The translations under genes and the position numbers were made by a program. The notes below the pieces were generated by a model. The model did no database searches. It was given only the letters and a program-made list of their open reading frames with translations, and was not told where the DNA came from. Positions 13,471 to 58,260 of a stretch of DNA of 64,000 bases are shown here, one piece after another (the stretch's first letter is position 1; every line of letters begins with the position of its first letter). Where the stretch lies: assembly GCA_018902385.1 (NCBI GenBank), contig JABSSW010000034.1, positions 434,001 through 498,000 on the forward strand, read 5' to 3'. This DNA is from Physcia stellaris. Its lineage: Eukaryota; Ascomycota; Lecanoromycetes; Caliciales; Physciaceae.

Positions 13471-13540
13471 CTCAGTCCTACTGTTGCCTTAGGTCAAATA
13501 CTCCAAATCAACGAGTCAGACTCGTATCAACGTGTAAACG

Positions 13541-19238: not shown

Positions 19239-19678
19239 ACTGGGTGTTATTGCTTGCGATTCCTAGTACATACTGTAGTTCCAATGACATTCTTCAACTA
19301 TCGACTCAGTTCCTTCTCCGTAGGTGATGTTCTATGCTCCAGTCGTGATCTACTCGCTACTTTTGAGGATCTTACATATATTATTACAAAAGAGAAAAAA
19401 CACCCCGCTAAGGCAACTCCGCGGTCTACTCATATCGGCGAAGCGATTGATCAGTCATAAACTCTATCATCCAGTAATTTTGTCTCGTGGTTCAGGCTCT
19501 ACACTAGCGTGACTTCTGTCAATCTATGTTTCCTGAATCCGTTCACTGTTTTCTGAAGGTTCTCAATATTTCTTAGATGTGTCAAGAGGGTGTCTGCAGA
19601 TTGCCGTGCTACTTTCGGTACAGACTGATATGATGTTGTAACAAGGCAAACGCCTGCAAAATGCAACAGCGCTTTATC

Positions 19679-19693
19679 TTAGGGTTAGGGTTA
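19679..19693 (+). repeat. Short interstitial telomere-like sequence
   Basis: TTAGGGTTAGGGTTA, two and a half copies of the common fungal telomere unit. Copy B has the variant TTAGGGTTAGAGTTA at the matching place. It is too short to prove a telomeric origin. Confidence 0.5.
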
Positions 19694-20064
19694 TGAAACA
19701 TCACCACTTTCGCCACCACCACCGCTCTGTTGTACGAAACACCACATTATGAACAATTCACGATTATACGTTGAGGCGTTGATGATTTTGCGTTCGAATA
19801 TACATACAATTACGTTCAAATCGCAAAAATCGAGCATTTCGTTGCAGTATGGCGTAATTGACTCTTGATGAAATCAACACTCCCCATACCATAATATGAT
19901 ATGATATGATATGCCATGCCATGCCATGACATGCCATGGTATACAATATGATATACAATATACTGTATATCTTCTACAAGAATTCTTTTTAGCGCTTCCC
20001 CTTTTAGCGTCGTTTTTAGCTCGTCGCATGTCGCATGTCGCATATCGTTGATTGCATTACTGCT

Positions 20065-20262
20065 ACGAGACTTGCAACTCAACGGAACAGCGTATTACGA
20101 GGCTTGCAATTCAACGGAACAGCGTGTTACGAGATCAACTACGAAGCTTGCAATTCAACGGGACAGCGTATATACTACGAGACTTGCAATTCAACGAAAC
20201 AGCGTACATATTACGAGACTTGCAATTCAACGAAACAGCGTGTTACGAAATCAACGTGACAG
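20065..20262 (+). repeat. Minisatellite in copy A
   Basis: Five to six units of ACGAGRCTTGCAATTCAACG plus RRACAGCGTRT, with lengths of about 32, 36 or 48 bases. Because lengths vary in steps of four, all three frames stay open over short distances, which makes spurious open frames. Confidence 0.85.
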
Positions 20263-20466
20263 TGTTATCAAATTTTGAGCAATCTCTGATTCAGCTGCTC
20301 AATTTGTATGATAAATTGTATGATAATCAGGCAGTTGATTTGGAGACCCTTTCAAGATTTTCGTCGTATCTCAGAATTCTTAGGCTGAATACGGAATAGA
20401 CTGTTCCGGAATAAGGTTTATCCGCAGGCCGTGCTCCTCACGCTAAAAATCATTCTTGTATTGGGT

Positions 20467-21346
20467 TAACAAGGCAAACGCCTGCAAAATGCAACAGCGC
20501 TTTATCTTAGGGTTAGAGTTATCAAATATCATCACTTTCGTCATCATCATCGTTCTGTCATCACCATCACCGCTCTGTTGTACGAAACATCACATTATGA
20601 ACAATTCACGATTATACGTTGAGACGTTGATGATTTTGCGTTCGAATATACACACAATTACGATCGAAACGCAAAAATCGAACGTTTCGTTCAAACAATG
20701 CTCAATTGATTCTTGATGAAATCAGCATTCTCATTCTCTATATCATATTATATCATGTCATGCCATGCCATACTAATGGCATGGTATACCATACAATATG
20801 GTATACATATATCTTCTACAAGAATTCTTTTTAGCGCTCCCCCTTTTAGCGTCGTTTTTAGCTCGTCGCATGTCGCATGTCGCATGTCGTTGTTCAACTT
20901 CTCAACGGGACAGCGTACTACGAGGCTTGCAATTCAACGGGACAGCGTATATACTACGAGGCTTGCAATTCAACGGGACAGCGTGTTACGAGATCAACTA
21001 CGAAGCTTGCAATTCAACGAAACAGCGTATATACTACGAGACTTGCAATTCAACGGAACAGCGTATATACTACGAGGCTTGCAATTCAACGGGACAGCGT
21101 GTTACGAAGTCAACTACGAGATTTGCAATTCAACGGGACAGCGTTATCAAATTTGAGCAATCTCTGATTCAGCTGCTCAATTTGTATGGTAAATTGTATG
21201 ATAATCAGGCAATTGATTTGGAGACCCTTTCTGAATTTTCGTCGTATCTCAGGATCCTTAGGCTGAATACGGAATAGACTGTCCCGGAATAAGGTTTATC
21301 CGCAGGCCGTGCTCCTCACGCTAGAAAATCATTCTTGTACTGGGTT
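20467..21346 (+). repeat. Segmental tandem duplication, copy B
   Basis: This 880-base copy has the same order of parts as copy A. The difference in length lies mostly in the minisatellite and a trinucleotide-like CATCATCATC stretch near 20540. Confidence 0.85.
20893..21145 (+). repeat. Minisatellite in copy B
   Basis: Seven to eight units of the same family as in copy A, in a different arrangement. This shows that the array changes length after duplication. Confidence 0.85.
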
Positions 21347-21849
21347 AAAGATCGCAAGTCGCAAATACTCGATGCGTCTCTAGCCGATCGGGAGCGGGCC
21401 GAGCGGCTTCGGCCGATCCCGTTTTCTCTTTTTGTTTGAACTCGATGAAACGTAAAAGAGTGTTGAGTCTCTGGCCGGCGAACTTAATTCCCATGCTGGA
21501 TTTTGAACGTAATTTGATAGAGAGTTTGATGACTTTTGCAGAGATCAGCATCTAGAAGACCCAATATGCACTATTATCACAGGACTTTTTGCAGAACTTT
21601 CCACAGGACCTCACAGAACCTCGCACAAAACAGCCCGGAGCGATGGTCTCCTAGCTCGCAAGTCAAAACGTATCCTTTCATGGAGCAATACTGCTCGCAA
21701 TGCCGAACTCGAGCAAACGTAATCCCATATCGCTTTTAAACTGATACTTGATCAAGTTCCCGGCGAAATTCCTGATAATCGAAGACAAGCAGTCCAAACA
21801 GTAAGTCCATATTGCTTTCGAAATAGACCCACCTTTGTTTCAAAGCTGG
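21347..21849. other. Spacer
   Basis: I see no gene or repeat that I can support. Confidence 0.35.
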
Positions 21850-32140: not shown

Positions 32141-32299
32141 TTTTCCTCGGCCAGCTTGCCCGTGAAATCATTGAGCTCCTCCATGCCTCCCTTCTCCAGT
32201 GACTCTGCCATATCATATATCTCTCTAGCGAATAGCTTGACAGACCTAGTAAAGTCAAGAAAATCTCGGCTGGAACAGACGAGGAGCTCTCCCGCAATA
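32107..32299 (-). pseudogene. 3' part of a host gene split by a transposon
   Basis: The minus strand reads from the transposon boundary AGELLVCSSRDFLDFTRSVK, then LFAREIYDMAESLEKGG and LAEEKRKGRFGMEKQ, to a stop at 32107-32109. The frame is open and continuous right up to the TA at 32298-32299. The matching upstream coding sequence resumes in the same frame at 43937 on the far side of the insertion. The tail matches the AEEKRKGRFGM tail of the gene at 29.8-30.3 kb. Confidence 0.75.
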
Positions 32300-32400
32300 C
32301 AATCGTTTTAAAAAAGGTTGACGGTCGCGCGGACCGAGATTGAGAGTTTTCTCATCACACATCAAAATTGAGTGAGAGACGTGAAAAATCTCATCGTCAT
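32300..32400 (+). repeat. Left terminal inverted repeat
   Basis: Matches the reverse complement of 43836-43936 along its whole length, with about a dozen differences, mostly transitions. Confidence 0.88.
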
Positions 32401-34317
32401 GTAAAGTAGCCATTATATCGTAATAAAATTCTGTATAATTTTTCTTGATGTTGCATTTTTTCGATTTGTGATTTTTTTTGCTGTCGATATGACATTTTCA
32501 TTGAACGACATTGTTCGTGCGAACGTTCAATATTATTTCGATATCGACAAAAATCATTGATACGTTTTGAATCACATCAGCATTAATTTACGTCAAACGA
32601 AACGAATGTATAACAATTAAAAACAATGAAAAAAATAATTGATTTTTACACGAAATTTTTTGATCGTTTTGTCGTATTGCAACAAAAACATTTCGACGTT
32701 TTTTGAAATACGTTGCGATCAAATTCTCAATTTATTTCGACGAATTGATTTGATTTCTGTACGATGATTTCGATTTCGTTGTTTGTGAAATCACAATTTG
32801 AAACAATCTGAAACGTTTAAAATGAAGCAAAAAATTTTTTTTCAAAATAATCGCAAAACGTAACGTCGCATTTCGTGCTAAATGAACGTTGAAATTTACT
32901 CGTTGAACGATTAAACAATTAATTTTCATCGACGAGTTTGCTGTCAACGAACGTACGAACGATAAAAAAACGAATTGATTTTTTGTTGAAACATCGTTTT
33001 ATGTAATTCAAAAATTTCATCGAAACAAAAAATAAAATATTTTATCGATTTTCACAATTGACGATTACATATTTCATTTAATACATCATGACAACATCAT
33101 CGTCGTTATTTTCAACGATTTCATTCGATACAATGTTTTTTTTCAATGTTTCATCGACGAAATGAATTTTCGAAACGTGTTCATCATGAATAACGTCAAA
33201 ATATATCGCAATGACGAATTGCGAACGATGTGCGTCGAAATCAACGTTTAATTCGAATATTTATTTTCGTACTTTTTCGATTACAATTTTATCGAAATTT
33301 TTTTCTTCATTTTGAAAATTTGAATCAAAAAAAACATATATTTGACGAAGACGTACACGCAAAAACTCGAAAATTTCGATCAATTTTTGAACGATGCAAT
33401 GCAAAAAATGCAACGAATATAAACGATTAACAAAAATGATAAAAAAAATTTTGATAATTTGTTTCGTTTTGCAAACATTATTTATTCGTAACATGCAAAT
33501 TATAACAATAAAATTCAAATCGTAATATGTTTGCAAAGCGATAAAAATCGTTTTTTCAACATAAAATATGTGTCATTATTGCGTGAAAATGAGTAAATCA
33601 ATTTTAAACACGTGATTTTTCGACGCGTTGATTTAAAATTATGCGATATCGAAATCAGATTCGCGTCGATTTTGAAAATACATTGACGAAAAAAATTTAA
33701 CGTGAAAAATTCTGATATTGATCATGTTACGTTGCAAAAATTTCGAATTTGAACGTTTTTATTTAAATGTTGATTGTCAAAAAGAATTGTTATTTGTATA
33801 ATAAAACATGCATTTTTTTGTCAAATTTCGTTTGATAATTTTTCAAATCGCTTTTCACACGATTTTGAATGAAATAAAAATTTTCGTCAATATTTTTTTT
33901 TTCAACATTTTGCGTTTCGTTTTCATCAATCGACGATTCAAACGATTTTGATTCAAACTGTCGATTAACAAATTGTCGAAAGAATTTTTGCGATTGTTGT
34001 TTTCGACGTCATTTTTCGAAAATTTTGATTCTACGATTGAATTGCACTTTTATGAAAAATTTCGACATATCGACATTCATTCATGTTTTAATACGAGCGA
34101 ATGCAAATTGAATTTTGTTGTATTCATAAAATTCATCGAAATTCATATCGAACGTATGTTTCAAAAAATCAAAATCATCGACATAATTTTGTTGTTTCGA
34201 CGATTCACGAATAATCATTCAATTTACGTATTCGTTTAACGAAATTTCATTTTTCATCGAATTGTTTCGCATCGAATCTGGAATTTTCGAAACAAAAATT
34301 TTTTTGAAAAAGAAAAC
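32401..34317. other. Left interior of the DNA transposon, mutated
   Basis: Extremely AT-rich, almost free of CpC, CpT, ApG and GpG. Open frames are short and have no family signature. Confidence 0.5.
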
Positions 34318-34511
34318 TGTTAAGCGTGATGTGTGAATTGATTGATTTAAAAATTATGAAAAACAAAATGTCAATTTATGTACAGTAATTGCGAATCAAT
34401 TGTCTGATCATCACTTATTTAGTATGAAATAACGACAGAATTCTTGTCAAAAGTCATGTCAAAATATTTGATTTAAATTCATATCATTTAATCTGATTTT
34501 GTGTCATAACA
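34318..34511 (-). repeat. LTR of the nested Ty3/gypsy fossil (3' LTR by orientation)
   Basis: 194 bp, TG..CA ends, paired with 41580-41773. Confidence 0.88.
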
Positions 34512-37500
34512 ATCTGTCAATCAAAAAAAAAAATCAATATTTTTATTGAGTTTCATGTTTTATTATCATGCGTAATCATATCATGCATCAATTTATTTTT
34601 TTCGTTTTTCGTTTGTCGTTGCGATCATTAAAATTTTGCGAATGATTGAATTCGTATTGTTGATGAAATTCTGAAAATTTTGTAATTCGAAAATAGATCG
34701 TCATTCGTCATATTTCGATTCATAGTCGATTCATTTGATTAGATATTGAATTACGAGAATTTTGTTGTATTTTCTGATACGTTTGTCGATTAATTTCTCG
34801 ATTTTATAAAATTTATACTGATTCGTATCGTTTTCAATCTCAATGAAATCAAAATAATGAAAACGAAAACGATTGTAAAAATCAACGTCAACAAATGTTG
34901 ATTCGAGCTGTGCAATAAACACAACGAAATGAATTCGTTATGTTGATGACAATTTCAGTCAATATGTTAAACGTTCGATACGTTTAAGAATTCGAAATGA
35001 TTCGCAACGTTGTTGAAATAGTTTCGAATTTGACTTGTCAAACAGTTTGTAATTTTTGTTGAATTGTAAATAGATTTTTTCATCTTGTTTTAATCGAATA
35101 AAAATATAACGTGAATCATAGTATATTTTGATTTTGACAGTTGCAAAATTCGTGACATCGACAGTTTTTCGCTGATATTTCATGCGTTAAACTGACAAAT
35201 TCTGTACATTTGCTGTGTTAAATTCGATTAGATTTGATATCGCGTTTTTGATTTTGAATTCGTATATGATTTCATTGAATGATAAATCTGTAACGATGTT
35301 AAACGTGTTGTTTAGCTGAACTTGAATTGCAAAAAGAATTAAAATGTAATCGATGTTCGAAAATTCGATGACGAAATATTTGATAACAATTTCAACAATT
35401 TGATTGATTCGTTTTGACGAGTCGTTCGTTTGCGAATGATATGTCATTGAAATTAACAATTTCGTGCTTAACTTGATGAAAAACATTTGTCAAAGATTCG
35501 ACATGAATTTTGAATCACGATCGAAAATTATAATTTCAAACATTTTTCAATCGACGATTAATAGCTTGTTCAGTAATGCGTTGATTCATTTTTTCGTTTC
35601 ATAAATATTCTTGTCGAAAATCAATGAAACTCGACGAAAATGTTTACAAATTGCGAACATAACAGTGTTCATTTCGTCGAACATAGTTAGAATGAAATCA
35701 ATGACAATGATGTGAAACGAACGCGAAACGAATATAATAAACATGAATTTTTCATACGATCGATGACGTTTGATTTGTGTTAATTGACAAATAAAACAAT
35801 GTTCGATGTATTTTTTAATTTTTCGCGAAAATCGAAATATGTATAACGTATTGAAAATTTTGTCATAACATCGATGAATTTTTGAATGCTAATTCGTATC
35901 GTGAATTAAACGAAATATTTCGCGTTTCATAACAACAAATATACACGATCGACGCGTGTCAATGTCAACATGATATATAATGTCATTCGTATTCAACGCG
36001 AAATTGATTTCTGTTTTGAATTTTCTTGATATAAATTTCGTATCGTCATTTTTTTGTTCATTGACGTTTCGTTTCGTTACGTTGTTTCTGAACGACGATG
36101 AAATTTGAAAATTTCGAATCGACAATTTTTGTTTTTTTTTGCATTCGAATCGTCAACGATTTTAACATTTCGATCATGTTTCGTCATTTTTTTTTCTGAT
36201 ATTCGTTCTTGATTTTTTTCTTTAAATTTTTCGACATTGCGATGAATGTGTTTTGAAAAACGTAACAATCGAAATTATTCGAAAAGTCGATTATTTCGTC
36301 ATGATATGTGTTTAAATCAAATTTATTTTTTGAATTCTTGTCGATTTGCTCATTTTCAAAAATTAATTTTGATAGCGCATTCGAAACAACATGATTTTTT
36401 TTTTGATTTATATTTCATTTTCAATTTAAATTGTGACAGATAAATTGAAACACGAACGAAACGAAAATTGAATTTATCGATGTTGTTCGAATTCATCGTA
36501 ATTTGTTTAGCGATAAAAATATTGACGACATAATTCGTGAACACAACAATGATAATCTTGATTGTTTTTATCATATGTCGAATTTTTTTGACAATTCATA
36601 TTAAGTCACACATTTCGAATTCGATGAATCAATATTTGATTTCGATTTCGTTCAATATTTTGCTTAAAAATAAAATGAATTCGATGTCGTTACGTTTGAA
36701 TTTGTCTGAATTGCTGTTTGTTTTAAAATGATAAATCATCGCGTCGAATTCGCGTCGTTTAAACGCGTCGATATCGATGTACAATTTTCGATCGAAATTG
36801 AAATATATCAAAAATGAGATTTTGCTAAACGTCTTTTGCAATAGTCGATATGATTTTAATTTCTCAATTGAAAAATTGTTCATTACAATTTTTGCGAATA
36901 GATTTTGCGAATCGTCTTTTTTGTTGCTTGAAAATTGACGTAAAAATAAAATTTTGCGACGTTGTAATGCGTTCGTTTTTGAACATAAAACGCGACGAAA
37001 TTTCGTAATCATTTTGTAAAATCTAAATAAATTTTCAAATTCTTGAAAATATAAAAAAATTCAATTTAATTATTGTTTTCAACTTGTCGATTGCGATAAT
37101 GAAATCAAAAACATCAATTTTTGATCAAGAAATGCGATCGTAAAATAGTCGAAAAATGATTTTTCGACGACAAATTAATTTTATAAATATTCAATCGTTC
37201 GAATATCGAATGTAAATGAATCATATGTTTTTCAAAAATATTGAAAAAAACAACAATATCATTTACGTAAACACGAGCAAACTCGCGAAAATTTCGAAAA
37301 ATAACGTCGATTCGTCGTTGTACGTATGATGAAAAATTTTTGAATTTCATCATTGCGACGTTAAATTGTTTTTGTTCTTTATGTAAAACGACGATAAATT
37401 TATGTCTGTCTGCAAACTTTATCAATCATTGATGAAAAAATTCGTTGCGTCGAAAACAAAAATGAATTTGCATTCGACGACAATTGAAATAATGTTTGAT

Positions 37501-40500
37501 TAAAAAAACATAAAATAAAAATCGATTAAAATGATTTTGTTTAATTCGCGTATATTCACGACGACTTGATTTTTGCGTTTTGAATCATTCGATTCAAATA
37601 TTGTTTTTCATACGACGAAAACAAAATAATCATGCGAAATGAATTGATTGATATATTTCATGCGATTTTGAACGTGCAATTTGTCGAAAATTTCGTCAAT
37701 TAATTTTCGATTTGCGAAGTCGAAAGAATAGATTTTTGTTGTTTCAATTTTGACGTCGAGTTTGAACTCAATTGACATTCATTTTTCAAACGAAATTCGT
37801 ACAATGAATTCGTTATCATTTCACAATTCTGAATAAATTTCGATTACATTTGCAAGTTTAATTCGTGCGTTAATATCATCGTAAATCGTGATATTTGCGA
37901 ACAAAATTTTCTCAACATTAATGTTTGAATTTGAAACAAAATTGTTAAAATTTTCGCACGAATTAATTGCAAAATTGATCGTAAAATTGAAATTTGAAGC
38001 GACGAAATTAAACGCGATCGCATCGTGCAAATTTTCATAATTAATCGCGATAATCGCGTCAACGATCAAAATCGAAACATCAAATTTCATAACTTGTTTG
38101 AATCAATTGCGTGAAACAAATTTATGAACATTAACAATTAAATGCGCGTATTTCGAATTAACTAAATAACATTTTTTTTTTTCGTATTTTTGTACGAGTC
38201 TCAAACGCGTATTTTTGAAAATGTAAACATTTTCAAAATTGATGTTGTTAACTTAAATTATTTCTGTATGTGCATCAATGATATAAAAAGTACGTTTTCA
38301 TTTGAATTTAATCGTTCAATTCGCGAGAACGTGAACATAAAATCGCGTTCAATAAATAAACTATTCTTTTCACGTAATTTGAAAAAGATCGTAAAAATTG
38401 ATTTAATTGAAATTTTAATAATCTCGTTAACACGAACAACGCGTTTGACTTGTGAATTTGCATTAATGACATTGAATTGTATTTTAATGTTTTTGCAATT
38501 TTCAATGATAATTATTTGTTTGTTTACATTTATATTCATTCGTTTTGAATTCAATATATCATTGTCAAGAAAAAATTTTGTTTTTAATTTTTTTATTATG
38601 TAAATTTGTCGAATGAACGTGACAATCGCATTTTCGTCATCAATCGAAATTTCAAAAACACGAAAAATTAATGAAATATGATCAATTGTTGTGACGACGA
38701 CGTTTTCAATGTCGCGAATTTTGAAAAATTTCATAATTTGTCGCGCATGAATTTGATAATCAAATATTTTTTGCATCAGAAATTTACGATCAATTAATGA
38801 CGTATCGCATTCGATATCGACGCACATATTCGTGAAAAATTGTTTTATGTTTGTTTTCATCGTGACGTAACGTCACGAACGAAATTCGAAATTGAATCGT
38901 GTATTTGCTTTGACGTTTGATTGTATTGTAAATGTCTGATAATTATAAACATTTTTCGTCGATGATGTGTCAAATTTAGTCGAAACTGTTTGACACGAGC
39001 GCAAATGTCGATAAAACTTGTTATTAAAATAAAATTCCGATTGACAACGTTTGCATGAATAAATTTTTGTTTGTTTGATTGAAATATTCACAAAATATTC
39101 AAATGATTCATGAATCACAAAATTCTCGTTAAATTTCTGAATTTCGAAATGCTTTTCGTCATGATATTTATCATTTATCGCAAATATTTTCGACGCGTTT
39201 TCAATATTCATGTTGTGATCGTTTTGATAATTTTTTCGTCGTTCGAATAATTGTTTTTTGTTTTTCATTCGCAAAATACGTTCGTCGATATGATGTTTCA
39301 TTTTGATTAAACGTTTCATTTTGATTGAAATAAATATCTTGCTTAGACGAAAACGGAAATGAATTTGAAAAATCAACAAAATATTGATTAAAACGTAAAG
39401 ATTGCGAATATTGAAATCGCGAATCGAACGTGTTTCGATTTTTTTGAATTTCGTCTTGTTGCGTTTGTTGAAATCGATATTGTTGATTTTCGTATGAACG
39501 TTTTTGCATATTTTGTGTCGATTGTTGTCGATTTGAATAGTTTGATTGATATGAACGTTGTTGAAAAATGTAAACGTTATTTTGTTTTTCAAATTGATAC
39601 GATGTCGAATATTGAATTTGACGAAATTGCGAAAAAAATTCATTGAAATTTTCGTAATTTACACGTTCATTGATAGCAAAAAAAATATTATACGAATCGA
39701 ATGATGTTGACAAAACTGATAATTGAAAACGATAAATGAATTGAAAACGACGTTCGTTTTCGAACAAATAATAAAATCGATATCGATTTTCGATGTTTTA
39801 TCATATTTTTTTTATCATCAAATTGTTGAAAAAATTCATTCATTGTAATTTTTTTTGTCGATTTAATCAAATCTCGTCGAAATTTCAATTTCAATTCATT
39901 GTAAATTAAATACAATTGCGAATAAATTGACATCATTGTCGATTTAATTTTTTTGATTATAATTTTAACGAAATCGAATGATTCGCGATGTCGACGAACA
40001 TTTTTTATCGTGTATTTTTTTTTCGTGATGATCGTCAACGTTGTCGATGACGATTTTTTTCATCGTTTCAACAACAAACGTTTTCATTTTTTTACGTCGT
40101 TTTCGAATTTGATCAATCGTTTTTGATCATCGTTAATTATTTTTGTGTATCAACGTAACGCGTGATCACGCATGCAATTATAAAAATTTGTTCGAATCAT
40201 ATCAGCATCTTTGAACAATGTCATATTTTTAATTTTTTCAATGTAAAAATGAATATTTCGAAAATATGTATTTTTGTTCGAATGCTCGATCGAATTGTCG
40301 ATGATAACGTTTTTTTCGTATCACGAATCAAAAATTTTGTTTTTTGAATATTTCATTTGACGTCATCATCATTGTCAGAAAATTCGATTGAATTTGATGA
40401 TTCGACGAGTTTTGAAAATTTTGTTTGAATGTTGTTTTTGATATTTTCGAACAAAATTTGAAATGTTTGTCATTGTTGTTGAATGAATTCAATGTTTTGT

Positions 40501-41090
40501 CAATTGTTATTTTCATTCGTTATGTTTGTATTAAATGCGAAAATAGATTCGATATTTTCTGTGTTTCGAAAAATAATATTTAACGAAACTATGATATTGT
40601 CTCGTCGTTGAAAAGACGACGTCGACGAAATGATTTGAAATTTACGACGTAAATTTTTCGAAAAATGAATATAAAAAATATCAAAAAAAATATTTGCAAT
40701 CGTCGATTTTAAATCAAAAATGAATGACGTAACACGATCACTAATTCAATCGAAAAATGATTGATTATTTCGATAAATTTCGATAACGATCACGAAAATT
40801 TTAAAATCTTTGCGAAAGCGAATTTTGTCGACGATTCATTTTGTTGAATAAACAATATTCGTCGAAATTGAATAACTAATAATTGACAACGATGTTGATT
40901 TAAAACAACTAATTACGATGCTGTTCACAGTAATTTTTGTCGATGTATTGACAAAATAAATTGAATCAACGATATCGATGTAATCGAATAATTCAAACGC
41001 AATGCGAATGATTTGTGATGTGAAAACAATCAAAATGACTTAAATGAAAATAATGTGTCGTATTGAAATCTGAAATAGAATGATGATAAA

Positions 41091-41118
41091 CAAAAAAAAA
41101 AAAAAAAAAAAAAAAAAA
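41091..41118 (+). repeat. Poly-A run
   Basis: About 28 consecutive A. It lies inside the LTR element and is the longest homopolymer in the window. Confidence 0.9.
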
Positions 41119-41579
41119 GCGAATTGAAGTTTTCAAAACTTGTTGAACAAATTATCTGTTGATGAAAAAACAAATGAAATCGTTAAATTGAATTGTTCGA
41201 ATCAAACAAAAATTTAAATGTGAATTGACATTCAAATGTGTCGTCATTGAACGATGACAATGCGAATTTTCACGAAAAATCGAAATGTTTTGAATATTTG
41301 AATGAGAAATCAATCGTTTTTGCTGAAAATTGTAAAAAATTGAAAAAATTTGATTGAAATTTTCATTTTCAACTAGATGTTTGTTATTGATGATTGATTT
41401 CGATCGACACGTCGAATCGAACGAACAATAAAGTTTTCGACAACGACAACGAAAAAAATATTGATGAGCAAATGACTTGCGTACAAAATGCAAAACTGTT
41501 CGAAAATTGATACGTTAAAAAACAAAAAATGATGTCGTTTTGTTTACGTACAAATCATCGCTTGAATGATGCTATCAAT

Positions 41580-41773
41580 TGTTAAACGTGATGTGTGAAT
41601 TGATTGATTTAAAAATTATGAAAAACCAAATGTCAATTTATGTACAATAATTGCGAATCAGTTGTCTGATCATCATTCATTTAATATAAAATGACGACAG
41701 AATTCTTGTCAAAAATCATGTCAAAATATTTGATTTAAGTTCATATCATTTAATTTGATTTTGTGTCATAACA
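41580..41773 (-). repeat. LTR of the nested Ty3/gypsy fossil (5' LTR by orientation)
   Basis: 194 bp, TG..CA ends, paired with 34318-34511. Confidence 0.88.
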
Positions 41774-43835
41774 AAAACATTTCGTTCGATTCGTTTTCGT
41801 CATTCGTGCTCAACAAATCAATCGATATTTTTCGATTGAAATGTTTTTTTTTTTTTGAATTTACGACGATTTTTGACACGTTCATTGTGCAAAACACGAG
41901 CATTTTTTCTTTGTTGTTGTTTCAGAAAGTGAATCATCATAATCGACGTCATTTCAATTGCATTCGAAACAAAAACAGAAAATTTTTCTTTTTTTACGAT
42001 TGTTTTGAACTTTTTATTCTCAATACGTTTCATTTTATCGTCACGTTTTTTTCATTGAAACAGCATTGATTTAGACGATTTGTTGATATTGACGTCGTTT
42101 GAGTTTTCATCAATAATTCGTTGTCACGTTTTAAATTTCATCTCGATGACTGACATATGACGTTGAGTATCGAAATCAATATAACAATATCTTGTTTTTG
42201 ACGAGTTTTTGCAGTTTCGAAATTTGCAAATATGTTTGTTTTGCAAAATCATTATTTTGTTGTCAAACTCAATTTTATCGAGCGCTTTTTCGATCAATTG
42301 TTGAAACATTTGAAAAATTGTTGATTTTTTCGTTTCAGAAACAAACGCATTTGTTTTATTTTTAATTTTCGATTTTTTTTTGTTGATTTCATTCGTCGCA
42401 ACGACGATAACGACGACGATTTGCTGTTAAATTTGAACGTCAAAAAAAACAATATCGTTCACATATTTCGAAAAGCGATAATTTAACAGCAAAACAAAAT
42501 TTTTTTCTGAATCGTTTCGCGTGCAACGAGTTTTCAAACGAAATTCTGTCTTTCAAAAAAAATTTTCGTTTGTGAAATTCGAAGAAATTCGATCAGCAAT
42601 TTTCATGCGATCAAATATAACGACGATGATTATGTTAATTATATAACAAATTAATTCTGTTTTATCTGTTTTTTTCTTTGCGATATTTGTAATTCAACTT
42701 TTTTGAAACGTTCAATTCAAATTCACGATCAAATCAATGCTTTCAAATTTGATCATAAATGTATCATTAAACATTTCTTTATCGTCGAAAAAAATTTTCG
42801 ATCGAAACTCAAATTCGAAAAACTGATCGAAAATAAAACGAATTGATTGAATTGCAGCGAAAATGATTGATCGAATTGTAACAATTGATTTCGATTCGAT
42901 TGTTTGTTTGAAAAATGATTTTGAAAATGATTTTGAAAATGACGAAACGTGTAATTTCTCGAACGATTTTATGTCAAAAAAATCGTCAAAATGCGTTTTT
43001 TTGACGTGCTTTTCGAACATTTTTGAATTTTTTGAAAACTCGAATTTATCAAAAAAAATAAACGAAAAATCAAACGAAATATCGAAATTCAGATTATTTT
43101 GAAACAAATTTCTCAATATTGACGAAAATGAAATATCGAAATTCAAATTATTTTGAATCAAAAGTTTCAATATTGACGAAAACGAAAATACATCGCTTTG
43201 TTTGTAATATTCAAGCAATTGAGTCATTTGCTGTTGAATCATTGAAAAAAACGAAAAAAAATCGTTCGAAAATTTCAAATTCGTTTCATTTCGATTTAAA
43301 TTTTTCGAAATATCGTTCATCGTATCGAACAATTTTTGAAATTGCACGTTTTCAAAATATCGATTTTGAAAATCAGAATTATCGTATTTCATGACGCGAA
43401 AATCAAATCTAAAATACAGTTTTTTCTTAAGCGTTTTCTTGAAAATCTTCGTCTCAATGAAAATTTCATTTCGTTCACGACGAGAAATTTGAACGATATC
43501 GACGTTTGCAAATCTCGTCGATTTGTTGATGAAACATTTCGAAAAAAATTTTTTTTTTTTTTCTTTTTCTTTCGCGAAATTCGCAAAAATCTTTTTCGAT
43601 ACGAAAACAATGAATTTGAATTTTGATTGTTTCAATATGAATTCATTCAATTGAATCGACGACTTTTTTTTGCGTAACGATTGAAAAAATTTATCAAACG
43701 TCAATTGAATCGAATTCGTGAATTTGATTTTGAAAAACATATTGCGAATCACGATTCGAAAATTCAACATCACGAAAATTATACAGAATGAAATTACTAC
43801 GAATTATTTATATATTGTTATGAAAACGAAAACGA
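41774..43835. other. Right interior of the DNA transposon, mutated
   Basis: A minus-strand frame of 353 residues (43773-42712) survives. It is Phe/Lys/Asn/Ser-rich, has an internal duplication (two IQNNLNFDISF-like segments at about 43070-43180) and shows no transposase signature. Its composition is set by the mutation bias, so I do not call it a gene. Confidence 0.45.
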
Positions 43836-43936
43836 ATGACGATGAAATTTTTCAGGCTTCTCATCCAATTTTGATGTGTGATGAAAAAACTCTCAATTTC
43901 GGTCCGTGCGACCGCCAACCTTTTTTAAAACGACTG
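43836..43936 (-). repeat. Right terminal inverted repeat
   Basis: Partner of 32300-32400. Confidence 0.88.
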
Positions 43937-44737
43937 TAACGGCAACACGAGCGGCATCGCGACCGTCTTCCAAAGATTTCAGTCCGCGTCGTAGTTCGAA
44001 GATGAAGCTTTCGCAAACGCGATCGTTAACCTGAAAAAGCTTTTCTTGGAACGGTTTCTCCTGGGCGGCTTCAAGTGCGATTCGAATTTTCTTAGAAGGG
44101 CGCGAATTTGCTATGCTCTGGCGCAATGAGTTGAGAAAGATTTACCCAGATCATGAATAGGAACACAGTCCCCGCTGATTGAACATCCTCATCTTCCTGC
44201 CAGAGTCGGGTAACCTGTTTTACATGTCAGTTTCTCATTGAGATCTGACAAAGTCTGGAAAGTTCACGTCGAGATACCATTGACCATTATGTTCCCAGAG
44301 TCGGACAACCTCAGTTTCATATCGTTTCTGAGCCGAATATCCCAATAGAACCGGAAATTGTGCCCCCAAAAGCGTCTGAAAGCCATTCTGCTCTGTTTCT
44401 CGATCTCGGGTAAATGGCTCTCCAAGTCTGTTTTCAATTGGAAGTTTGATTGATTCCTGATCACCGGACCTAGTTATTACCAAGTAGAGGGTTAAGGAAA
44501 TGTTGACGAGTCGCTATTGAAAAGGTGCATCGACATGGTAGGAGTTTCGTGGCTCCAAAGGGCAACACACCACATCCGATTGTCAATTTGGACATTGGAC
44601 GAGCTGGCTACGGGCATGACAAGAGTCTGAGGTTCAGTGGATAGACTGACTTCGGGGTTTGCTATGCTGTTGATGTTGCCTCTGCTCCATTTGCTGGGTG
44701 AGTTGTCACTGTTCTGGCCACCGCGCTTGGTTGACAT
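43937..44737 (-). pseudogene. 5' part of the host gene split by the transposon
   Basis: ATG 44737 begins MSTKRGGQNSDNSPSKWSRG. Further coding blocks follow in changing frames, probably separated by short introns: FQTLLGAQFPVLLGYSAQKR with VVRLWEHNGQWYLDVNF, then VTRLWQEDEDVQ, then SKKIRIALEAAQEKPFQEKL with FELRRGLKSLEDGRDAARVA just before the insertion. A likely acceptor is AAAACAG|GTTACC near 44215. The two V(V/T)RLW blocks look like an internal protein repeat and match a motif dispersed elsewhere in the window. With the insertion the normal C-terminus is lost. I do not know the family. Confidence 0.6.
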
Positions 44738-48843: not shown

Positions 48844-48991
48844 TGATGGAGTGCAAAATGCACCTTTCTCAATTAGCCTAGCCTAGCAGTAGCATAAGTG
48901 GCCATCTGGCCATCAGGGATTTTCTCTCATTATCATACAATGCATCTTGATTCTAGTCATTGATTTCTATTCATCAATGATTAATTTTTCA
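48844..48991 (+). repeat. Left LTR, little mutated
   Basis: 148 bp with ordinary composition, for example TAGCCTAGCCTAGCAGTAGC. Confidence 0.88.
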
Positions 48992-51900
48992 ATGAGAATC
49001 GAACAAAAATCGTAACAAATTGATGCTGCAAACTCAAACAAAAGTACGTGTTTGAAAATTTTTCATTCATTTTGCATTTTATTCGTGTTGTTTCGATCAA
49101 AAGAATTTGATCGAAAAAAATCTTTTCATTTAATTATCGTTACGTGCATTTTGTCATAATCAGAAAAATTTAATTGAACAAAACTAGAAATTATCGAAAA
49201 ATCGAATAATTTATGACGAATCGAATATTTCATTTTTCATTTTTCGAAAAAGACTTGCAAACTACATCAAAATCTAAAAAAAAATCATTTTTTTTTTGTT
49301 AAACAAACGATTGCTAACAAAATTAAATCATTTTTCAAACGTGATTTTTTTTATTCATTCGATCAAAATCAATTTTACACAATTTTTTTTTTTGAAAATA
49401 GTTTCGAAGAAATTTCGTCATCGCTAAAAGAATTTGCTTTTTCGAAAAAAAATTCATTTAACAAATCAAAATTCGATTTAATTTTTTTTAAATCAATCAT
49501 TTTCGATTCGTCAAATTCAATTTTATTTATTATGATTTCAATCAAAATTCGATTCTTTAAGAAATTTCGAAACGAAAAAAAAAAATTCGAAAAAATACAT
49601 TGAAAACATAAATTGAACATACGAACGAAATTTCAAAACAATTGACGTCGATGAAATTACGATTAACAAATTCAAACGAATGCTGTTTCGTCAAAATTTG
49701 AAAAATGATGTTCATGTTTGATACAAAAATTTGAAATCAAATTTCAAACAAAATTGATTTAAATTGCTGAAATTTTTTTTAAAATACTATGAGATTTTCG
49801 TGAAAAATGCTCAGACTAAAAAGTTTGAATTAAAAATGCAATTGATTCAATTGAAACAAAAAAATCAAGAATTGATTTTCGATTATATCAAACGAGTTTC
49901 AGATATTTCGCGAAAACTATTTAACGACGAAATTGATGTCGAAATGACTATTTTGCGAAATATGAAAAACGTTTCGAAAAAAAACAGATAAACTTCGAAT
50001 GTCAAAAAAAACAAAATTACAATTTTATCGTTGTGAATAAGTTGATTAAAACAGTTTACAATAAAATAAACAAATTCAATTCATTTGATTCGAAATACAA
50101 AAAAATTATGCAAATGATGTTGTTTCATACAACAAATTTTGATCAAATCAATGATGAATTGCTTAAACAAATTTTAATTAATAGTAATCAAGTTTTTTCA
50201 GCGATGTTTCAGACATTACGTTTATTGAATTTCAATTTTGATCAGTTTACGAGTTCGAGTCAACGAAAATTTACGAATACGCAACAAAACGACAAAGATT
50301 TTGCACATATAATTTGTTACATATGCAAACAATCAAATCATTACGTTCACATTGTTCAAATCAATCAAAACAAAAATTTAAAATCACGAAAATCATCAAT
50401 CACGCAATGATATCAATTAATCAAATACAATTTCAACGACAAACGAAATATTCATTTGCTTCTAATCAATCATTTTTTTCGAATGAATTGATTCGATTGA
50501 ATGTTATTTTTAATCAATCATTTCATAATCAAATTGTCAATAAATTACAACATGAATTTAAATCAACAATGTCGAATGTCGTAATTTTAGTATCATCATT
50601 GTCGATTTTGAAAAAAATTAAAATAAAAAATTATCACATCGACGACGAAAATAATGATCAAAATTTTTTTTATCAATGATTTGTATTTTATCAACACAAA
50701 AATTATATTTGATCACAATCATGATTGCGCAAAATGTTAAAAACAAACAAAAAGTTAATCAAGCAACGACGATTTCGTTTTCGAAATCAAAAAATCAAAA
50801 TTTCGATTGAATTCGTCAATTAAAATCTCGAAAAAAAACGTAAAATATGTGTTCAATGCGAAAAGTCAAAATGATGAAAAAAATAAAAAAAATCAAAAAT
50901 CAAAAAAATGAATATCTCGAAAGATAAAATTGACGAAAATGAATTTACGTTCATTTATCAATCGATTTCGCAATCAATTTTTTGAAAAAATAATCGATCA
51001 TTCATTTCACAATTGTTTCAATCGATATCGCAAAATTCAACTCAATATGAATTTCGAAATTCGTCGTCAATCAAATTCAATAAAAAAGAAAATTTAATTC
51101 ATTTGATTTCGTACAAGTTTTCAAAAATTTTCGATTTTATTCGAAATTTATTCGAAATTAGTCGATTCAACGTAAATATTATCATGAATTTGTTTTTGAT
51201 TTTGTCGTTGAAACAATTTTTCGACAAATTCGATGTGATCAAATTAAAATTGACAAAAAACATGCAAAAATTTATTGCGAAATATCGAATTCGAAAAATT
51301 AATGAACAAAATCGAAATCAACAAAAAACGACGACGTCATTGATTATGACGATCACAAAAGCTAAAACAAAATCATCAATCATTATAATTCATGTTCACG
51401 AAAATGATGAACAATCGCAATTTTTAATAATTATTTTTGAATAAACAATGTGAAACTGTCAAGAACATTGATAAATGAAAAATCGATGATGAAATTGATT
51501 AATCGTCAAAAACTTTTAATCATGAAATTTGCATTTTTGTACGAACAAACGATCATTTTCGAATTAATTTAATCACGAATCACGTTGAAACGTTCACAAA
51601 TTACATCGTATTTTTTGTTAATGTCGAAAAAATAAAAATTGTGATTAAAACGTATATCGTGAACAATCAGATTTATGATTTGCTATTGAGTATTTCATGA
51701 ATGAAAAAAATAACTTTTAATTCGCATTATGACACAGACGAAATAATCATAACTGAAAAAAATGAAAAAAAACGAAAAATGTCAACGCAGATTTTTTCAA
51801 TTCATGTTGATTTATTAACGATAAAAATGAATAACGACGACGAAATTAACGATTTGATCGACGTTGTTTGTCATTGTTTCTAAATGAACAATTAAATTGA

Positions 51901-54900
51901 ATACGTATTCAGCGAATGATCGCTCGTTGAAACGTGAATGTCGCAAAATTGATCAAAATAATTTTAATATATTTAGTCAACAATCGTTAACGTTCATGAC
52001 GACTATCATTATTTTTATTTTCGTGATTACGAAAACAGAATTTATCTTATCGAAATATTCGTTAAATACAAAAAATGACTTTTCGACGCAAAAAAAATCA
52101 ATATAAGAAAACTAAATAATGAAAACATGAATGTTATTGAAAAATGATTCGAAAAAAATGAAATTATTATAAAATTAAACGTTGATACAGAAAAGAAAAT
52201 GATTAAAACGAAACGATTAATTTATATTTGAAAAAAAATATTTTGCAATAACAATTAAAAACATACGAATTACAAATTTTATTGAACATTCAATCGATTT
52301 TATTTCGAATGCGAAATCAATTCGAAATACGTTATTTAAATACATTTTCAAAAAAGAAAATTCGCAAATCGAATTTTTTCAAAATTAAAAAATGCAAACA
52401 TTATAGTCAAAAAAAACAATTCATGAGAAACTAAAATCAAATTTTCTTTCAAAAAAAAAAAAAGTCAAAACTATTGCGAATAATTCATAATTTTATATTT
52501 ATCAACAAGTACATTATCAAATCAATTTACTCTATGCATCATATGAAAAAAATTATAATTATTTTTTTGAAATTCAAATTTTCGATTTATTTTTGCTCGA
52601 ACGCAACAAATGATTATTGAGCGATTTCAATCAAAAAAAATAATGAAAATAAAATTGAATTTATTATTTTCAACGATCAATGAATATATCTAAAAATGAA
52701 TCAAGATTTTAAAGAAAATTCGTTTATTTATGCGCAATTTTCGAATTTGATATTTGATTTTTTGTCATTCAACGACGTCGACGTGATTAAAATAATTACA
52801 ATAATTGATGATCATGACGAGTTAATTTTCGCAATATTTATGAATGATCACGAAACGTCGATTACAAATTACGAAATTTTATTTAATTTTTTGCACATTC
52901 AATATTTTTTCAAATGTGTTTTTGATTCAATGTATTTATTTGATTTTAAAACGTATTTGTTTTCGAACAAGTTAAATTTTTTAAAATTTGAAAAAAATGC
53001 AAAAAATTTGAAATCAATTTTCAAACATCGCAACAAAATTTTGAACTGATTTGTTTTAAAAATCGAAAAAAAATTAAATGCGTTTTTATGATTAACGTCT
53101 TTTTTACGAATTTTTATATTCGAAAGAGCGAAACTAATGCTAAAAATGAAAAAATTTATTTCATGTTGATGTCAAACGAACTCAAACTCAAAAAAAATCA
53201 TGATGCAAAAATGAAATCATGCGACGAAAATTTGATTAAATCACATAAAACGTTTCGAATAAAACGATCAATCATTCAACGCAAATATGTGAAAAAAGAT
53301 ATTTTCGATTGAAAAACAAGTCAACAAAAAACATTCGAATCGATTAAAGAAATTATAATTAATAATGTTATGACAAAAACAAATTCAACATTTCAATTTC
53401 ATTTGATCACGAATGTTAACGAAACGAAATTGAAAATTTGTTTATTTCAATTGCAAAATATTGAAACAGAAATTGAAATTATTTCGAAATTGTTAATTCA
53501 TGAAAAAATGTTCATGTTTTTGTTTTATCGTCTGAACGACGCAAAAACACGATATTCGAATTTTGAACGTGAATGTTATATCATAATGAAAAATTTAATC
53601 GAAATTAAATGATTAATCATGAACAACAAATTTTCAATAATGATGTATATTGATTATGAAACGTTGAAATCAATGTTCGTCATAAAACAAACAAAAAAAA
53701 ATAATAATTTCATGATTAAACATGTTGAAAAAATTCGATTTCAAATTACATTATCGATTCAATAAAAATCAACACATAAATATTGCTGATGAGTTTAATC
53801 GAATGTCAACTAAATTACAAAATGTAATTTTTATTCGAAAAAGAAACGTTTAATCATGTCGATGCTAAACGTGAATTTACGAAACTTTAACATTTATTTG
53901 TCGAATGAACAATTTGATCATTCATTTGAAATTGATAATGAACGAAAATCAAAATTGAACGAAAAACAAAATCGTTATCTATTTTGTCTTTTGAAAAGCT
54001 GAATAAGTATTATAGATTTTCAATGTATAGTCAATTGATGAAATATTTCGAAAAAAAAATCAAATGATTTGAAAAAGCAAAAATTGATCGCTAAAAAAAT
54101 AAAAATTTTCGAAAATAAAATCAATGTTTATATTTTATTTTCACACGTTATCACAACTCATTTACTTTATCGAGAAGCAAACGAAAAAATAGCATTTGCA
54201 TAATCGAAAAAGAAATATCACGATTTTTCAAAATAATTTACGAAAATCATGATTATTTCTCGTCAATTTTAACATTCGATTTCTTGATAAAACGAATTTA
54301 TTGATTTACAAAAATAAAAAATATTGAAAAATGATGTAAAAATTGTCATTTTTGTCAATGTCGATTGAAAAAATCAATTCAACGCATTTCGTTTAATATT
54401 CAACATTTTCAATTAATGATTATGATCGATTTAAATTGACTAAAATTTATATCGTTTTTTTGTTCAATTACAAATGTTTAATATGTTTATTTAAAACGAG
54501 ATGATTGAAACAAATTTAATTGAACAAAAATTTATCGTACACATATTGTTTTGAAAACGTTAAACTTTTTACGAAAACATATTTGTTCAATTTTCGAATG
54601 ATCAAAAAAAACGTACATTGACAATGATTTTCATTTCGTTAACAACGATGTTAACGCAATGTTTATTGAACATGACATTAATTATTTTACAAATTCAATA
54701 TCGCATTTTTCATCGATTGATTTTTTGAAAAAAACAATTCAAAAAATGTTGAATTTTATTGCAAAAAATTGTATAAATCGAAAAACAACAAATTCGTGAT
54801 TTTTGTTTATTCGAAATTATATTTTTACAATGAATATTAAATCAATCAAAACATTAAATTATTTTTCGATTATGTTGATGTTAAAATTTGAATTCAAACA

Positions 54901-57451
54901 ATATCATTTCGATATAAATTCAATAATTTTTTCAAATTCAACAAATGTTGAACAGTTTTTGTCAATTCATCAATATCAAATATATATCGCACTAAAAAAA
55001 AAAAACAAATTGTTAACTAGTGAAACAGTCAATTATACTCACGACTATCAAAAAAAAAAAAAAAAACAACGACAGCAAAAAATATTCAATTTTGACGATT
55101 TAGTTTTAGTCAGAAATCATCAAATCGATAAAAAACATGAAAAAAAATTGAAATCGAAATGATTAAAATTTCGTATAATGTTAAATTGAATTTATCATGA
55201 ACAAAACGTTCACATCAAGTCAATTCACGAAAAAAATCAAAAAAATATCATATCGATGATATTATAATTTATCATCAACGATCAATTTTGACAAATTTAT
55301 TGATTTCGATCAACGAAATTTACGACAATATACGAATCATCATCAGATTTGAACAACGAACACTATGTCTAGTCATCAATTAAAAGAAAATTACACATCG
55401 TTCGCAATGACGTTAAACTAACAAAAAGTAAAAACTTCAAACGAATACGAGTCGATTTCGTTTTTCGTTGTCGTCGTTTTTTTCAGCGAATACGAATCGA
55501 TTTCGTTTTTCGTTACAACATTTTTTTATCGAAATTAACGCGTTTGATTAATCGCGATGAAATTATTCAATTTTTATTTTACAATTTATTTCACATTTTC
55601 ATTTTGCAATTCATCAAACATTCACATTTCGTTTTGTTTTACAATTTTATTTTGCAATTGTTTCAAACGATATATATTAACGATTTTACGAAACATTTTT
55701 TTAACATCGATCAAATAAAATGATCGACAATAAAATCAATGTATTGATCGAAATTGACAACAAAAAAAATCGAAAAAAAATTAAACGTATCGAAACACGA
55801 AAACGATTCACAAAACAAAATTTATTTATTTTTTCGAAATTACAAATTCAAATTAAAAATCGTAAAAAAATTAATCAAATCATCAAAAGCGAAAAAATTG
55901 AAAATAACGAATTATTAATCGACGAAAACGACATTTTCAAAAAAAAAATTACATTTAAATCAATTTTTACAAAAAATCATAAACGAATTAACGAATCGAA
56001 ATTAATTGAATTAAACAAAAAAAAAACTAAATTGATTAACAAACAAGAATTAATGACATCACACGAAAAAAATGTGATCAAAATAATCAAAATTGAATTT
56101 CAACGAAATTCGAAAATCGATTTGTTCGTAATTTTTCGCTGTGAATTCAGCACGATGTATCTATCAATTAATTCAAATCGAAAAAAAAATCATTCATTTT
56201 TGAAATTTAGTTCATCAACATTTGAAAAATGTGTTCATCAAAATATTCGACGAAATGTTCGAAATCAAATTTGAATCGTATATTAATTTATTTATCGAAT
56301 TTGCAAATATCGCATTTTCAAAATTTTTAAATTTCAATCAAAATTTAAAATTAAATCAATTGTTCGTCGTTGAAAACAAAATTTATTTCATTAATTACAA
56401 CATTTATTTAATTAATATTAAACAAAATTTAAATGCAATAATCAAAAATCAAATTAAAACAAAAAAAAAACACATTGTTGTCGAAAAAATACGATTGACG
56501 AAAATAATTCACGATTTTTCAATCGATTTCGTTTTTTTGAAAAATAATTTTCAATTAACGAACATCAATTTGATTTACAATGTTAACATGTTGACGAAAA
56601 TATGCGAATTCATTAAAAAAAATTTTTTAATTTATGAAAATTATGTTTCGCAATTTAATCAACAAATTATCGATGACAAAACGATGATTTTCGATGTTTG
56701 TTATATTATTGACAAATTGTTAAATTTTTTTTTAAAAAATTATGATCACGAATAGCGACAAAATTAAAAATGTTATGAAAATCGACGACGAAATCACGAA
56801 TCAAAATAAAAAAAAACACGATCATTTCAACGAAATTGAATCAAAAATCATTCACATGAAATGCGATCGATGTCATATAAAATTGAAAAATCAATTTAAA
56901 TCGTCAAAAAAAATATCATTCAATTTTTTGATTTTAATAAACGCGCATTTATGTCAATGTTCAAAATGCGATTTTGAATTCGAAATTAAAATTATAATCA
57001 TGATTACGTTTGCGACGAAAATCAAAATGAAAAATAAATGATCGAAAAAATATTGAACGAAATATTTGAAAATCAAACAAAATACATGAAAAACAAAAAT
57101 GAAACAACAATTCAAAAAATAACGTTTCAAAAAATTGAAAAAAAAAAAACAAATTAAAAAAAAAATTGAATTTATATTAAATCAATCACAAATTGATCGA
57201 CAAATCAATAAAATTAAACAAAAAATGAAAATTAATTTAATCACGAATTACAATTTTTTCAAAAAAAATTTCAACAAGTTGATGAACGAAACGATAATAA
57301 AACGATAAAAAATTATAAATTATGAATGAATCGATGTTACAAATTTTAATCGATTAAATTTAAAAAATTGAATATTAAAATTACACACATTTCGATAATT
57401 ATTTCGAAATTATTTACGAAATCGTAAATTTTTTTTTGATATTATGTGAAC

Positions 57452-57599
57452 TGATGAAATGCAAAATGCATCTTTTTCAATTAATTTAATTTAACAATAA
57501 CATAAATGATCATTTGATTATCAGAAATTTCTTCTCATCATCATACAATGCATTTTGATTCTAGTCATTGATTTTCATTCATCAGTGACTAGTTTTTCA
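57452..57599 (+). repeat. Right LTR, heavily mutated
   Basis: 148 bp, collinear with the left LTR without gaps. About 30 bases differ, all by transition. Confidence 0.88.
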
Positions 57600-58260
57600 A
57601 TAATGAGTCACGAAATAGAATTATTTGCTTAGAAGTCAAAATTTAATTCTGACGAATATTTATTTTTGTCGATAACTCTAATTCGTGATTCATTACTGAG
57701 TTTGACTCACTTTCGAATGAATACGAATATTTTCTATCAAAGTTCGATATTGTCATACAAGAAAAATCTTTTTGTGAAAAATATCTCATAGCAATTTATT
57801 TACAATCTATCTTTTTATCTATTTATTTTTCTATCTGTTTATTTATTTACGTCGATATCTCGTTTCGTCGACGCTTATTGATGTATTCTCGAACGAGGAA
57901 TTCTCAGAAGAGGAGGAGAATCATTGAATGTACGATTAATAAAAAATCGAAATTTTCAATTTGAATCGATGTGATTTGCAAATCAAGTTTCCAGATCAAA
58001 TTCGAAATAAATGAGTAAATGAATAGATAAATTGATCGAAAAATCTCCGAAAACGATTTCGAAAGACGAAACGATTTCGAAAAAGATTTTCGAAACGTTC
58101 ATTTATCAAAATGAAATTCGTATTTCATGATCTGATAACAAGTAATGCTATTTGAGAAACATCGATGTTGAAAAGAAATAACAGAAAACTGATTGAAAAG
58201 TCAATTGACAAAGTGCACGTGATTAACCTTATATGTTTGACATTCGATTTTTTACATAAT
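57600..58260. other. AT-rich island with ordinary dinucleotide make-up
   Basis: AT-rich, but CpT, ApG and even GpG are present (for example AGAAGAGGAGGAGAATC near 57905), in contrast to the blocks on both sides. No gene is seen; it may be unique DNA between two elements. Confidence 0.5.

Follow-up and report, generated by a model that had tools for sequence, protein, structure and literature searches.

Two CpC- and CpT-depleted blocks and the elements they hold

We analysed a 64-kb window of the Physcia stellaris genome (the whole stretch of 64,000 nucleotides, positions 434,001 to 498,000 of contig JABSSW010000034.1; all coordinates below are those of the window), in which two blocks of DNA have lost most dinucleotides made of a cytosine followed by a pyrimidine (CpY, that is CpC and CpT, with their complements GpG and ApG) and have kept those made of a cytosine followed by a purine (CpR, that is CpA and CpG). 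This pattern resembles repeat-induced point mutation (RIP) with an altered target. All results concern this one window of one genome. Block 1 spans 32340-43860, and the same signature recurs from about 48.97 to 64.0 kb, up to the window end (block 2). The features at the two blocks are as follows.

32298..43938, no strand assigned: outer element of block 1, with inverted-repeat ends, CpY-depleted almost throughout
32298..32400, plus strand: left terminal inverted repeat of block 1; CpC and CpT still frequent up to 32410
43836..43938, minus strand: right terminal inverted repeat of block 1; CpC and CpT frequent outward from 43854
34318..34511, minus strand: long terminal repeat (LTR) of the nested element, 194 bp, TG...CA, 93% identical to the other LTR
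41580..41773, minus strand: second LTR of the nested element, pairing with 34318..34511
35586..35888, minus strand: mutated integrase zinc-binding open reading frame (ORF); Pfam Integrase_H2C2, E 4.7e-5, 23.9 bits, below the cut-off of 25.5
37114..37425, minus strand: mutated reverse-transcriptase-like ORF; Pfam RVT_1, E 0.0037, 17.5 bits, below the cut-off of 29.6
48844..57601, plus strand: first LTR-like element of block 2, with an LTR-like pair and an internal RNase H domain
48844..48993, plus strand: left LTR-like copy of block 2, close to the pre-mutation state, with hardly any mutation as far as about 48967
57452..57601, plus strand: right LTR-like copy of block 2, in the mutated state
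53313..53612, plus strand: mutated RNase H ORF of block 2; Pfam RT_RNaseH_2, E 5.7e-7, 30.0 bits, cut-off 29.8
57602..58290, no strand assigned: intermediate segment between two heavily mutated stretches (CC 4.4, CT 37.7, CA 50.1 and CG 46.4 per kb)
58300..64000, no strand assigned: further CpY-depleted sequence, element class not established, extending past the window end

The outer element of block 1 consists of about 4.2 kb of its own sequence and a nested 7.46-kb Ty3/gypsy-like retrotransposon, whose LTRs are bordered on their outer sides by a 5-bp target-site duplication (AAAAC). Its terminal inverted repeats measure 103 nt and are 89% complementary, and possibly TA stands at both flanks of 32298-43938. 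The 363-residue open frame at 42712-43803 (minus strand) of the outer element gave no Pfam match. By eye, 35187-35489 (minus strand) looks like what we take to be a segment of a gypsy integrase core. Further Pfam matches below the cut-off were RT_RNaseH_2 at 36629-37060 (E 0.025) and RT_RNaseH at 53313-53612 (E 0.018), and beyond the retroelement matches the 20 block ORFs searched gave only weak, chance-like ones. The mutated integrase had no relatives among the viral contigs searched, and the window had no Rfam match at gathering score. The LTR-like copies of block 2 are 79% identical and lie 8.6 kb apart, with no target-site duplication established. The segment at 57602-58290 resembles, at least in its present composition, mutation of a linker between repeats.

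The blocks have lost CpC and CpT and kept CpA and CpG

Dinucleotide densities (per kb per strand) were compared with those of a reference flank (1-32339). CC fell from 51.9 in the flank to 0.3 in block 1 and CT from 70.4 to 12.2, whereas CA (67.4 against 62.5) and CG (53.5 against 61.7, and 47.7 in block 2) stayed close to the flank values. The G+C content dropped from 0.49 to 0.27 in block 1 and 0.24 in block 2. The original prediction, made from the letters alone, had described CpC and CpT as nearly absent from block 1 and CpA and CpG as still common. The second statement agrees with these densities and the first holds for CpC and GpG, of which three each are left in 11.5 kb; CpT and ApG, in contrast, were reduced only to 17% of the flank density, about six-fold, leaving 159 CpT and 121 ApG. 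The hand count on which that description leaned (35941-36000: CC, CT, AG and GG 0; CA 6, TG 4, CG 7) was exact. The six CC plus GG of block 1 compare with a mean of 431 and a minimum of 381 in 200 mononucleotide shuffles of the same block. Similarly, block 2 contains a run of 8,980 bp without CC or GG (48917-57897), whereas such runs reach at most 193 bp in 1-32300, and a single CC or GG remains in the 5.7 kb of 58300-64000.

As had also been foreseen, the usual RIP indices miss this signature: with a threshold of TpA/ApT of at least 0.89 together with a substrate index of at most 1.03, none of 127 1-kb windows was positive, and TpA/ApT was 0.42 in block 1 and 0.46 in block 2. The blocks therefore lack the CpA preference and raised TpA of RIP (CpA hazard 0.07-0.14 against about 4 for CpC in the fit described below). 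They also lack the CpG depletion with TpG and CpA enrichment that marks CpG methylation-deamination of the Basidiomycota type (MIP), CpG being near flank density.

The base 3' of the cytosine sets the target on both strands

C-to-T change was simulated on both strands of the flank DNA with a rate set by the 3' base, and the outcome was compared with each block by Kullback-Leibler (KL) divergence, CpC-only and CpT-only models lying outside the simulated set. A model restricted to CpC and CpT reached a KL of 0.0045 in block 1 (0.012 on trinucleotides), against 0.348 with no change, 0.149 with a uniform rate, 0.320 with CpA, 0.342 with CpG and 0.079 with CpA plus CpT. The corresponding values in block 2 were 0.0077 for CpC plus CpT, 0.075 for CpA plus CpT, 0.132 for the context-free model and 0.360 for CpA only. 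The poor fits of the context-free, CpA-only, CpG-only and CpA+CpT models rule these out. When all four rates were left free, KL was 0.0032 in block 1 (hazards CA 0.07, CC 3.96, CG 0.00, CT 1.79) and 0.0006 in block 2 (CA 0.14, CC 4.31, CG 0.04, CT 2.08), with a CpA rate some 30 to 60 times lower than that of CpC.

The 5' base had little influence. For cytosines preceded by A, G or T (5' C was omitted, since CC is itself the target), the fraction retained relative to the flank was 0.000-0.011 before C, near saturation, and 0.09-0.16 before T, compared with 0.77-0.94 before A and 0.79-1.30 before G. Within CpT, retention across these 5' bases ranged from 0.11 to 0.16 in block 1 and from 0.09 to 0.13 in block 2, an effect of less than 1.5-fold. 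The 3' base mattered far more: compared with A, C lowered retention more than 50-fold and T about 5- to 9-fold. Both strands were affected about evenly in the gypsy-like element (CT 98 and AG 75; CC 2 and GG 1).

Repeat copies differ mainly by C-to-T changes at CpC and CpT

Copies of repeats were compared directly in 18 of 29 BLAST rows, namely four test pairs, 12 pooled controls and two unpooled pairs inside block 2; the 11 rows left out were six minisatellite rows in a tandem duplication, one nested row and four short pairs. The site counts add up both copies of a pair and are hence not independent, so that p-values serve as guides, and the four test pairs are a small sample. One of these lies outside the blocks:

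19639..21348, plus strand: tandem duplication of about 830 bp in normal DNA, copies 19639-20469 and 20467-21348, partly CpY-mutated

The LTR-like pair of block 2 comes close to a comparison of DNA before and after mutation. Its 31 differences in 150 ungapped columns are 31 transitions and no transversions. The 22 differences within 48849-48918 are all C to T or G to A from the left to the right copy, and 21 of them fall at CpC or CpT. Beyond 48918 changes run in both directions, partly because the left copy lost sites there that the right copy retains. Of the CpY sites of the left copy, 24 of 29 were changed, including all 10 CpC. In the two occurrences of GGCCA in this pair, the first C was changed in both and the second C, which precedes A, in one.

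Changed sites were concentrated at CpY in every test pair: 28/39 CpY against 4/54 CpR in the block 2 LTR pair (p 6e-11), 9/16 against 3/82 in the LTRs of the nested element (p 1.3e-6), 10/31 against 3/83 in the inverted repeats of block 1 (p 1e-4) and 34/239 against 13/427 in the tandem duplication (p 2e-7; odds ratio 5.3). Taken together, they gave a Mantel-Haenszel odds ratio of 9.6 for CpY over CpR. The proposal that the target is C before a pyrimidine is supported both by this ratio and by the low KL of the CpC+CpT model, and the C/T differences in the four pairs lie at CpC and CpT and not at CpA or CpG; a majority at CpA in genome-wide alignments had been named beforehand as fatal to the proposal. 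In the tandem duplication CpC leads (changed sites CC 24/92, CT 10/147, CA 10/231, CG 3/196; CC vs CG p 1.6e-10, CC vs CA p 8e-8, CT vs CG p 0.019). By repeat length, the 12 control pairs of about 90-370 aligned bases had an odds ratio of 1.5 and the single pair of about 830 bp one of 5.3.

Two minor repeats were seen alongside these. Arrays of a 36-bp minisatellite lie at 20064-21144 within the tandem duplication. A tandem repeat of about 170 bp lies at 63398-63795 in block 2; its copies differ at CpA and CpG too (20/120 CpR), unlike those of the LTR pairs, probably as a result of older divergence.

Mutation stops just inside the element ends

Moving inward, CpC and CpT turn rare at about 110 bp on the left of block 1, 85 bp on its right and 125 bp on the left of block 2; mutation thus halts just inside the element ends. 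The interval first proposed, 32340-43860, corresponds to the core of the element at 32298-43938, whose outermost 85-110 bp or so are not fully mutated. When the CpY/CpR ratio was scanned in 400-bp windows, the DNA outside the blocks stayed around 1. Up to 48.8 kb, block 1 excepted, only four windows fell below 0.65, all over the tandem duplication (19639-21348), and the edge window of block 2 at 48801 had a ratio of 0.62. CpY depletion in unique genes, which would have indicated a simple compositional bias, was not seen in the DNA outside the blocks. Within the window, mutation appears confined to repeats: the identified blocks are transposons, the flanks are normal and the duplication of about 830 bp is partly mutated. 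A regional AT bias is ruled out by the edges at the element ends. A 95-bp repeat (31579-31673 and 46125-46217, 94% identical) lies in normal DNA on either side of block 1 and shows no CpY bias.

Coding frames stay open and lose proline, glycine and tryptophan

We tallied the stop codons that single C-to-T changes would create in six long stop-to-stop ORFs from normal DNA of the window. Stops arose from 0/1,257 changes at CpT, 45/1,021 at CpC, 30/946 at CpG and 188/1,117 at CpA, since under the genetic code a single CpT change never gives a stop and a single CpC change gives one only at Trp. Accordingly, many long frames survive in the blocks. Block 1 has 16 frames that run from stop to stop over 100 residues or more, and block 2 has 22; in 20 first-order Markov copies of each block, the mean was 2.2 for block 1 (maximum 5) and 2.85 for block 2 (maximum 6). 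These are not living transposon genes, a possibility ruled out by residue content: the 77 stop-to-stop ORFs with 70 or more residues (32420-43840, 49000-57450 and 58300-64000; overlapping frames included) contain one Pro, no Gly and no Trp in 8,629 residues.

A probable RIP-like process and its alternatives

Altogether, the blocks probably consist of transposable elements, recognised as such in block 1 and the first half of block 2, that have been inactivated by RIP-like C-to-T hypermutation. This would be directed at repeats, and it strikes C before a pyrimidine on both strands; our confidence is limited by the part of block 2 that has no element assignment. The process is RIP-like and is not called canonical RIP because the CpA preference is missing. 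As in RIP, repeats would be recognised by homology. The target order would be CpC first and CpT next, with CpA and CpG essentially spared, and frames would be damaged mainly by missense, as Pro, Gly and Trp codons vanish, and less by stops. C5-methyltransferases read the base 3' of the C, and deaminases of the APOBEC and DddA types read the 5' base. Because the specificity sits in the 3' base and hardly in the 5' base, the mutator may well be an enzyme of the C5-cytosine-methyltransferase type (RID/Masc1- or DIM-2-like) with altered target recognition. That a defence enzyme with a different specificity is at work, as the original prediction implied, is a well-supported inference.

Several observations weigh against this interpretation. 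The preference for CpA by which RIP is usually recognised is absent. A small CpA rate (0.07-0.14) persists in the free fit and improves it, and one of the 22 directional changes in the block 2 LTR pair is at CpA. CpT sites of the tandem duplication (10/147) did not change significantly more often than its CpA sites (10/231; p 0.35). A slight CpY excess is present in the 12 short control pairs too (120/871 against 95/959; odds ratio 1.5, p 0.011). The two unpooled pairs inside block 2 carry many CpR changes (8/43 and 20/120, with CpY 2/5 and 6/10); they are about 75% identical over the BLAST alignments, and these CpR changes presumably reflect older divergence. Finally, the sample is small: four test pairs, all from a single window of one genome.

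The main rival is a slow route, in which lasting non-CG 5-methylcytosine at CpC and CpT (DIM-2- or CHH-like) deaminates spontaneously and no dedicated mutator exists. We regard it as unlikely, though it deserves the most weight among the alternatives. It would also yield two-strand C-to-T changes with a 3' context in transposons, and part of one report describes non-CG methylation for ascomycetes that have RID and DIM-2 (PMC7862722). The change of 24 of 29 CpY sites (10 of 10 CpC) beside no transversion in 150 columns, however, speaks for a fast process. Deamination of 5-methylcytosine raises the rate about ten-fold at CpG, and the rate estimated here is hundreds of times background, above that usual deamination. 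The partly mutated tandem duplication of about 830 bp also fits repeat recognition better.

Two overlapping activities, one specific for CpC and one for CpT, appear somewhat less likely still. They would fit the roughly two-fold faster loss of CpC than of CpT (hazards 3.96 and 1.79) and the CpT signatures reported, in the part of the paper used, for other fungi (PMC4352252), but CpC and CpT are both reduced in every tabulated mutated segment, heavy or partial, and a single enzyme with graded preference is simpler. Editing of transposon DNA by a cytidine deaminase of the APOBEC or DddA type is very improbable. The loss of CpC alone would resemble a CC-preferring deaminase; the weak effect of the 5' base at CpT (less than 1.5-fold) next to that of the 3' base (over 50-fold for C, 5- to 9-fold for T) points the other way, as does the change of the first C of GGCCA in two of two occurrences and of the second, before A, in one of two. 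Moreover, editing of retroviral-type cDNA would be strand-biased, whereas the strands here are about even and an inverted-repeat element and a tandem duplication are affected as well. Compositional bias, foreign DNA or an assembly artefact can practically be discounted, for although AT-rich isochores occur in fungi, such an origin is already contradicted in the window by normal flanks, abrupt edges at element ends, an intact target-site duplication and nesting, an LTR pair that is nearly a before-and-after record, and the poor fit of context-free C-to-T change (KL 0.149).

Comparison with known mutation systems

The comparisons below draw on parts of the papers cited. The RIP-like process shares with canonical RIP (Neurospora crassa and most Pezizomycotina; RID/DIM-2) C-to-T changes on two strands in transposons and duplications, normal adjoining DNA and an apparent leakage between neighbouring mutated stretches; it differs in that CpC exceeds CpT, CpA and CpG are spared, and the TpA/ApT and substrate indices are negative. 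The order is CpA>CpT>CpG>CpC in N. crassa, and in T. reesei CpA and CpG come first and CpC last (PMC5496416). According to a survey published in 2025 and covering 1,239 fungi, RIP-like defences share the CpA preference (PMC12543289). RIPCAL defines the ratios (CpC+GpG)/(TpC+GpA) and (CpT+ApG)/(TpT+ApA) and omits both by default (PMC2621366).

CpT signatures have been described beside CpA in Magnaporthe oryzae, Botrytis and Sclerotinia, with a RID-specific motif proposed to underlie them (Amselem et al. 2015, PMC4352252), with CpA in Anisogramma anomala (TpA/ApT 1.3-1.7 in the five largest families; PMC10998396) and by family in Colletotrichum truncatum (TpA/ApT about 1.6-1.7 in the CpT families; PMC6180176). 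CpT is a target in these species as it is here; CpA is also hit there and TpA/ApT is raised, whereas our blocks have CpC as the leading target and a TpA/ApT of 0.42 in block 1. None of these three papers uses the word CpC. With alignment methods, even species with ordinary RIP can appear to be dominated by CpT (PMC2621366; PMC7882544). In Monilinia, CpC-to-TpT double mutations accompany CpA (PMC8959702). In Rhizoctonia AG8, C/T variants per base are commonest at CpC, although the authors stress CpG, and they strike genes and repeats alike (PMC4014442). The CpG/TpCpG hypermutation of Basidiomycota (Microbotryum, Rhizoctonia; PMC4352252, PMC4014442) is likewise C-to-T in a non-CpA context, but its target is CpG, which here stays at about flank density.

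A C5-methyltransferase preferring CC is known from engineering: the CG enzyme M.MpeI comes to prefer CC after three substitutions and one deletion in its target-recognition domain (PMC10899764). That enzyme is bacterial and engineered and has no CT activity, and the parts of the report used here mention no mutagenesis. The sharp gene/mutated-transposon edges and the genic G+C near 48% of Cladonia rangiformis (PMC12542154) are as in our window; the text of that paper contains neither 'CpA' nor 'dinucleotide'. We found no report of a CpC-first, CpA-sparing RIP in the openly licensed literature searched, which does not imply its absence from print.

Whether the code of a natural, repeat-directed mutator has been switched here, with CpC moved from last to first and CpA from first to spared, so that standard surveys score the genome as RIP-free, we judge to be an even question. 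If so, a lineage that hits CpC and CpT and spares CpA would show that the target code of the mutator evolves and would offer a natural contrast for locating the residues that set RID/DIM-2 specificity, and index-based surveys would undercount RIP. Duplicated DNA would lose essentially all CC and GG, and its frames would lose Pro, Gly and Trp with few stops appearing. Such a defence would kill chiefly by missense, and gene finders might annotate as genes the long open frames it leaves.

Genes in the normal DNA of the window

Two related long ORFs, 11935-13488 (minus strand) and 23545-24966 (plus strand), are about 65% identical at the DNA level across 382 positions of their alignment. Neither had a Pfam match at E 0.001, and the protein of 11935-13488 had no relatives among the genome and viral contigs searched. 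In Pfam searches of nine normal ORFs and one block 2 ORF, and then of ten more, only SNF2-related and helicase C-terminal domains, both in one gene, scored above the cut-off, the other hits being weak and under it. A gene for an SNF2 remodeller of the LSH/DDM1/HELLS family lies at 971-3455 (minus strand); no link to the mutation process is implied. DNA methylation in plants and mammals depends on this family. The best PDB matches of the larger ORF of the gene were lymphoid-specific helicase (8e-112) and DDM1 (about 1e-99).

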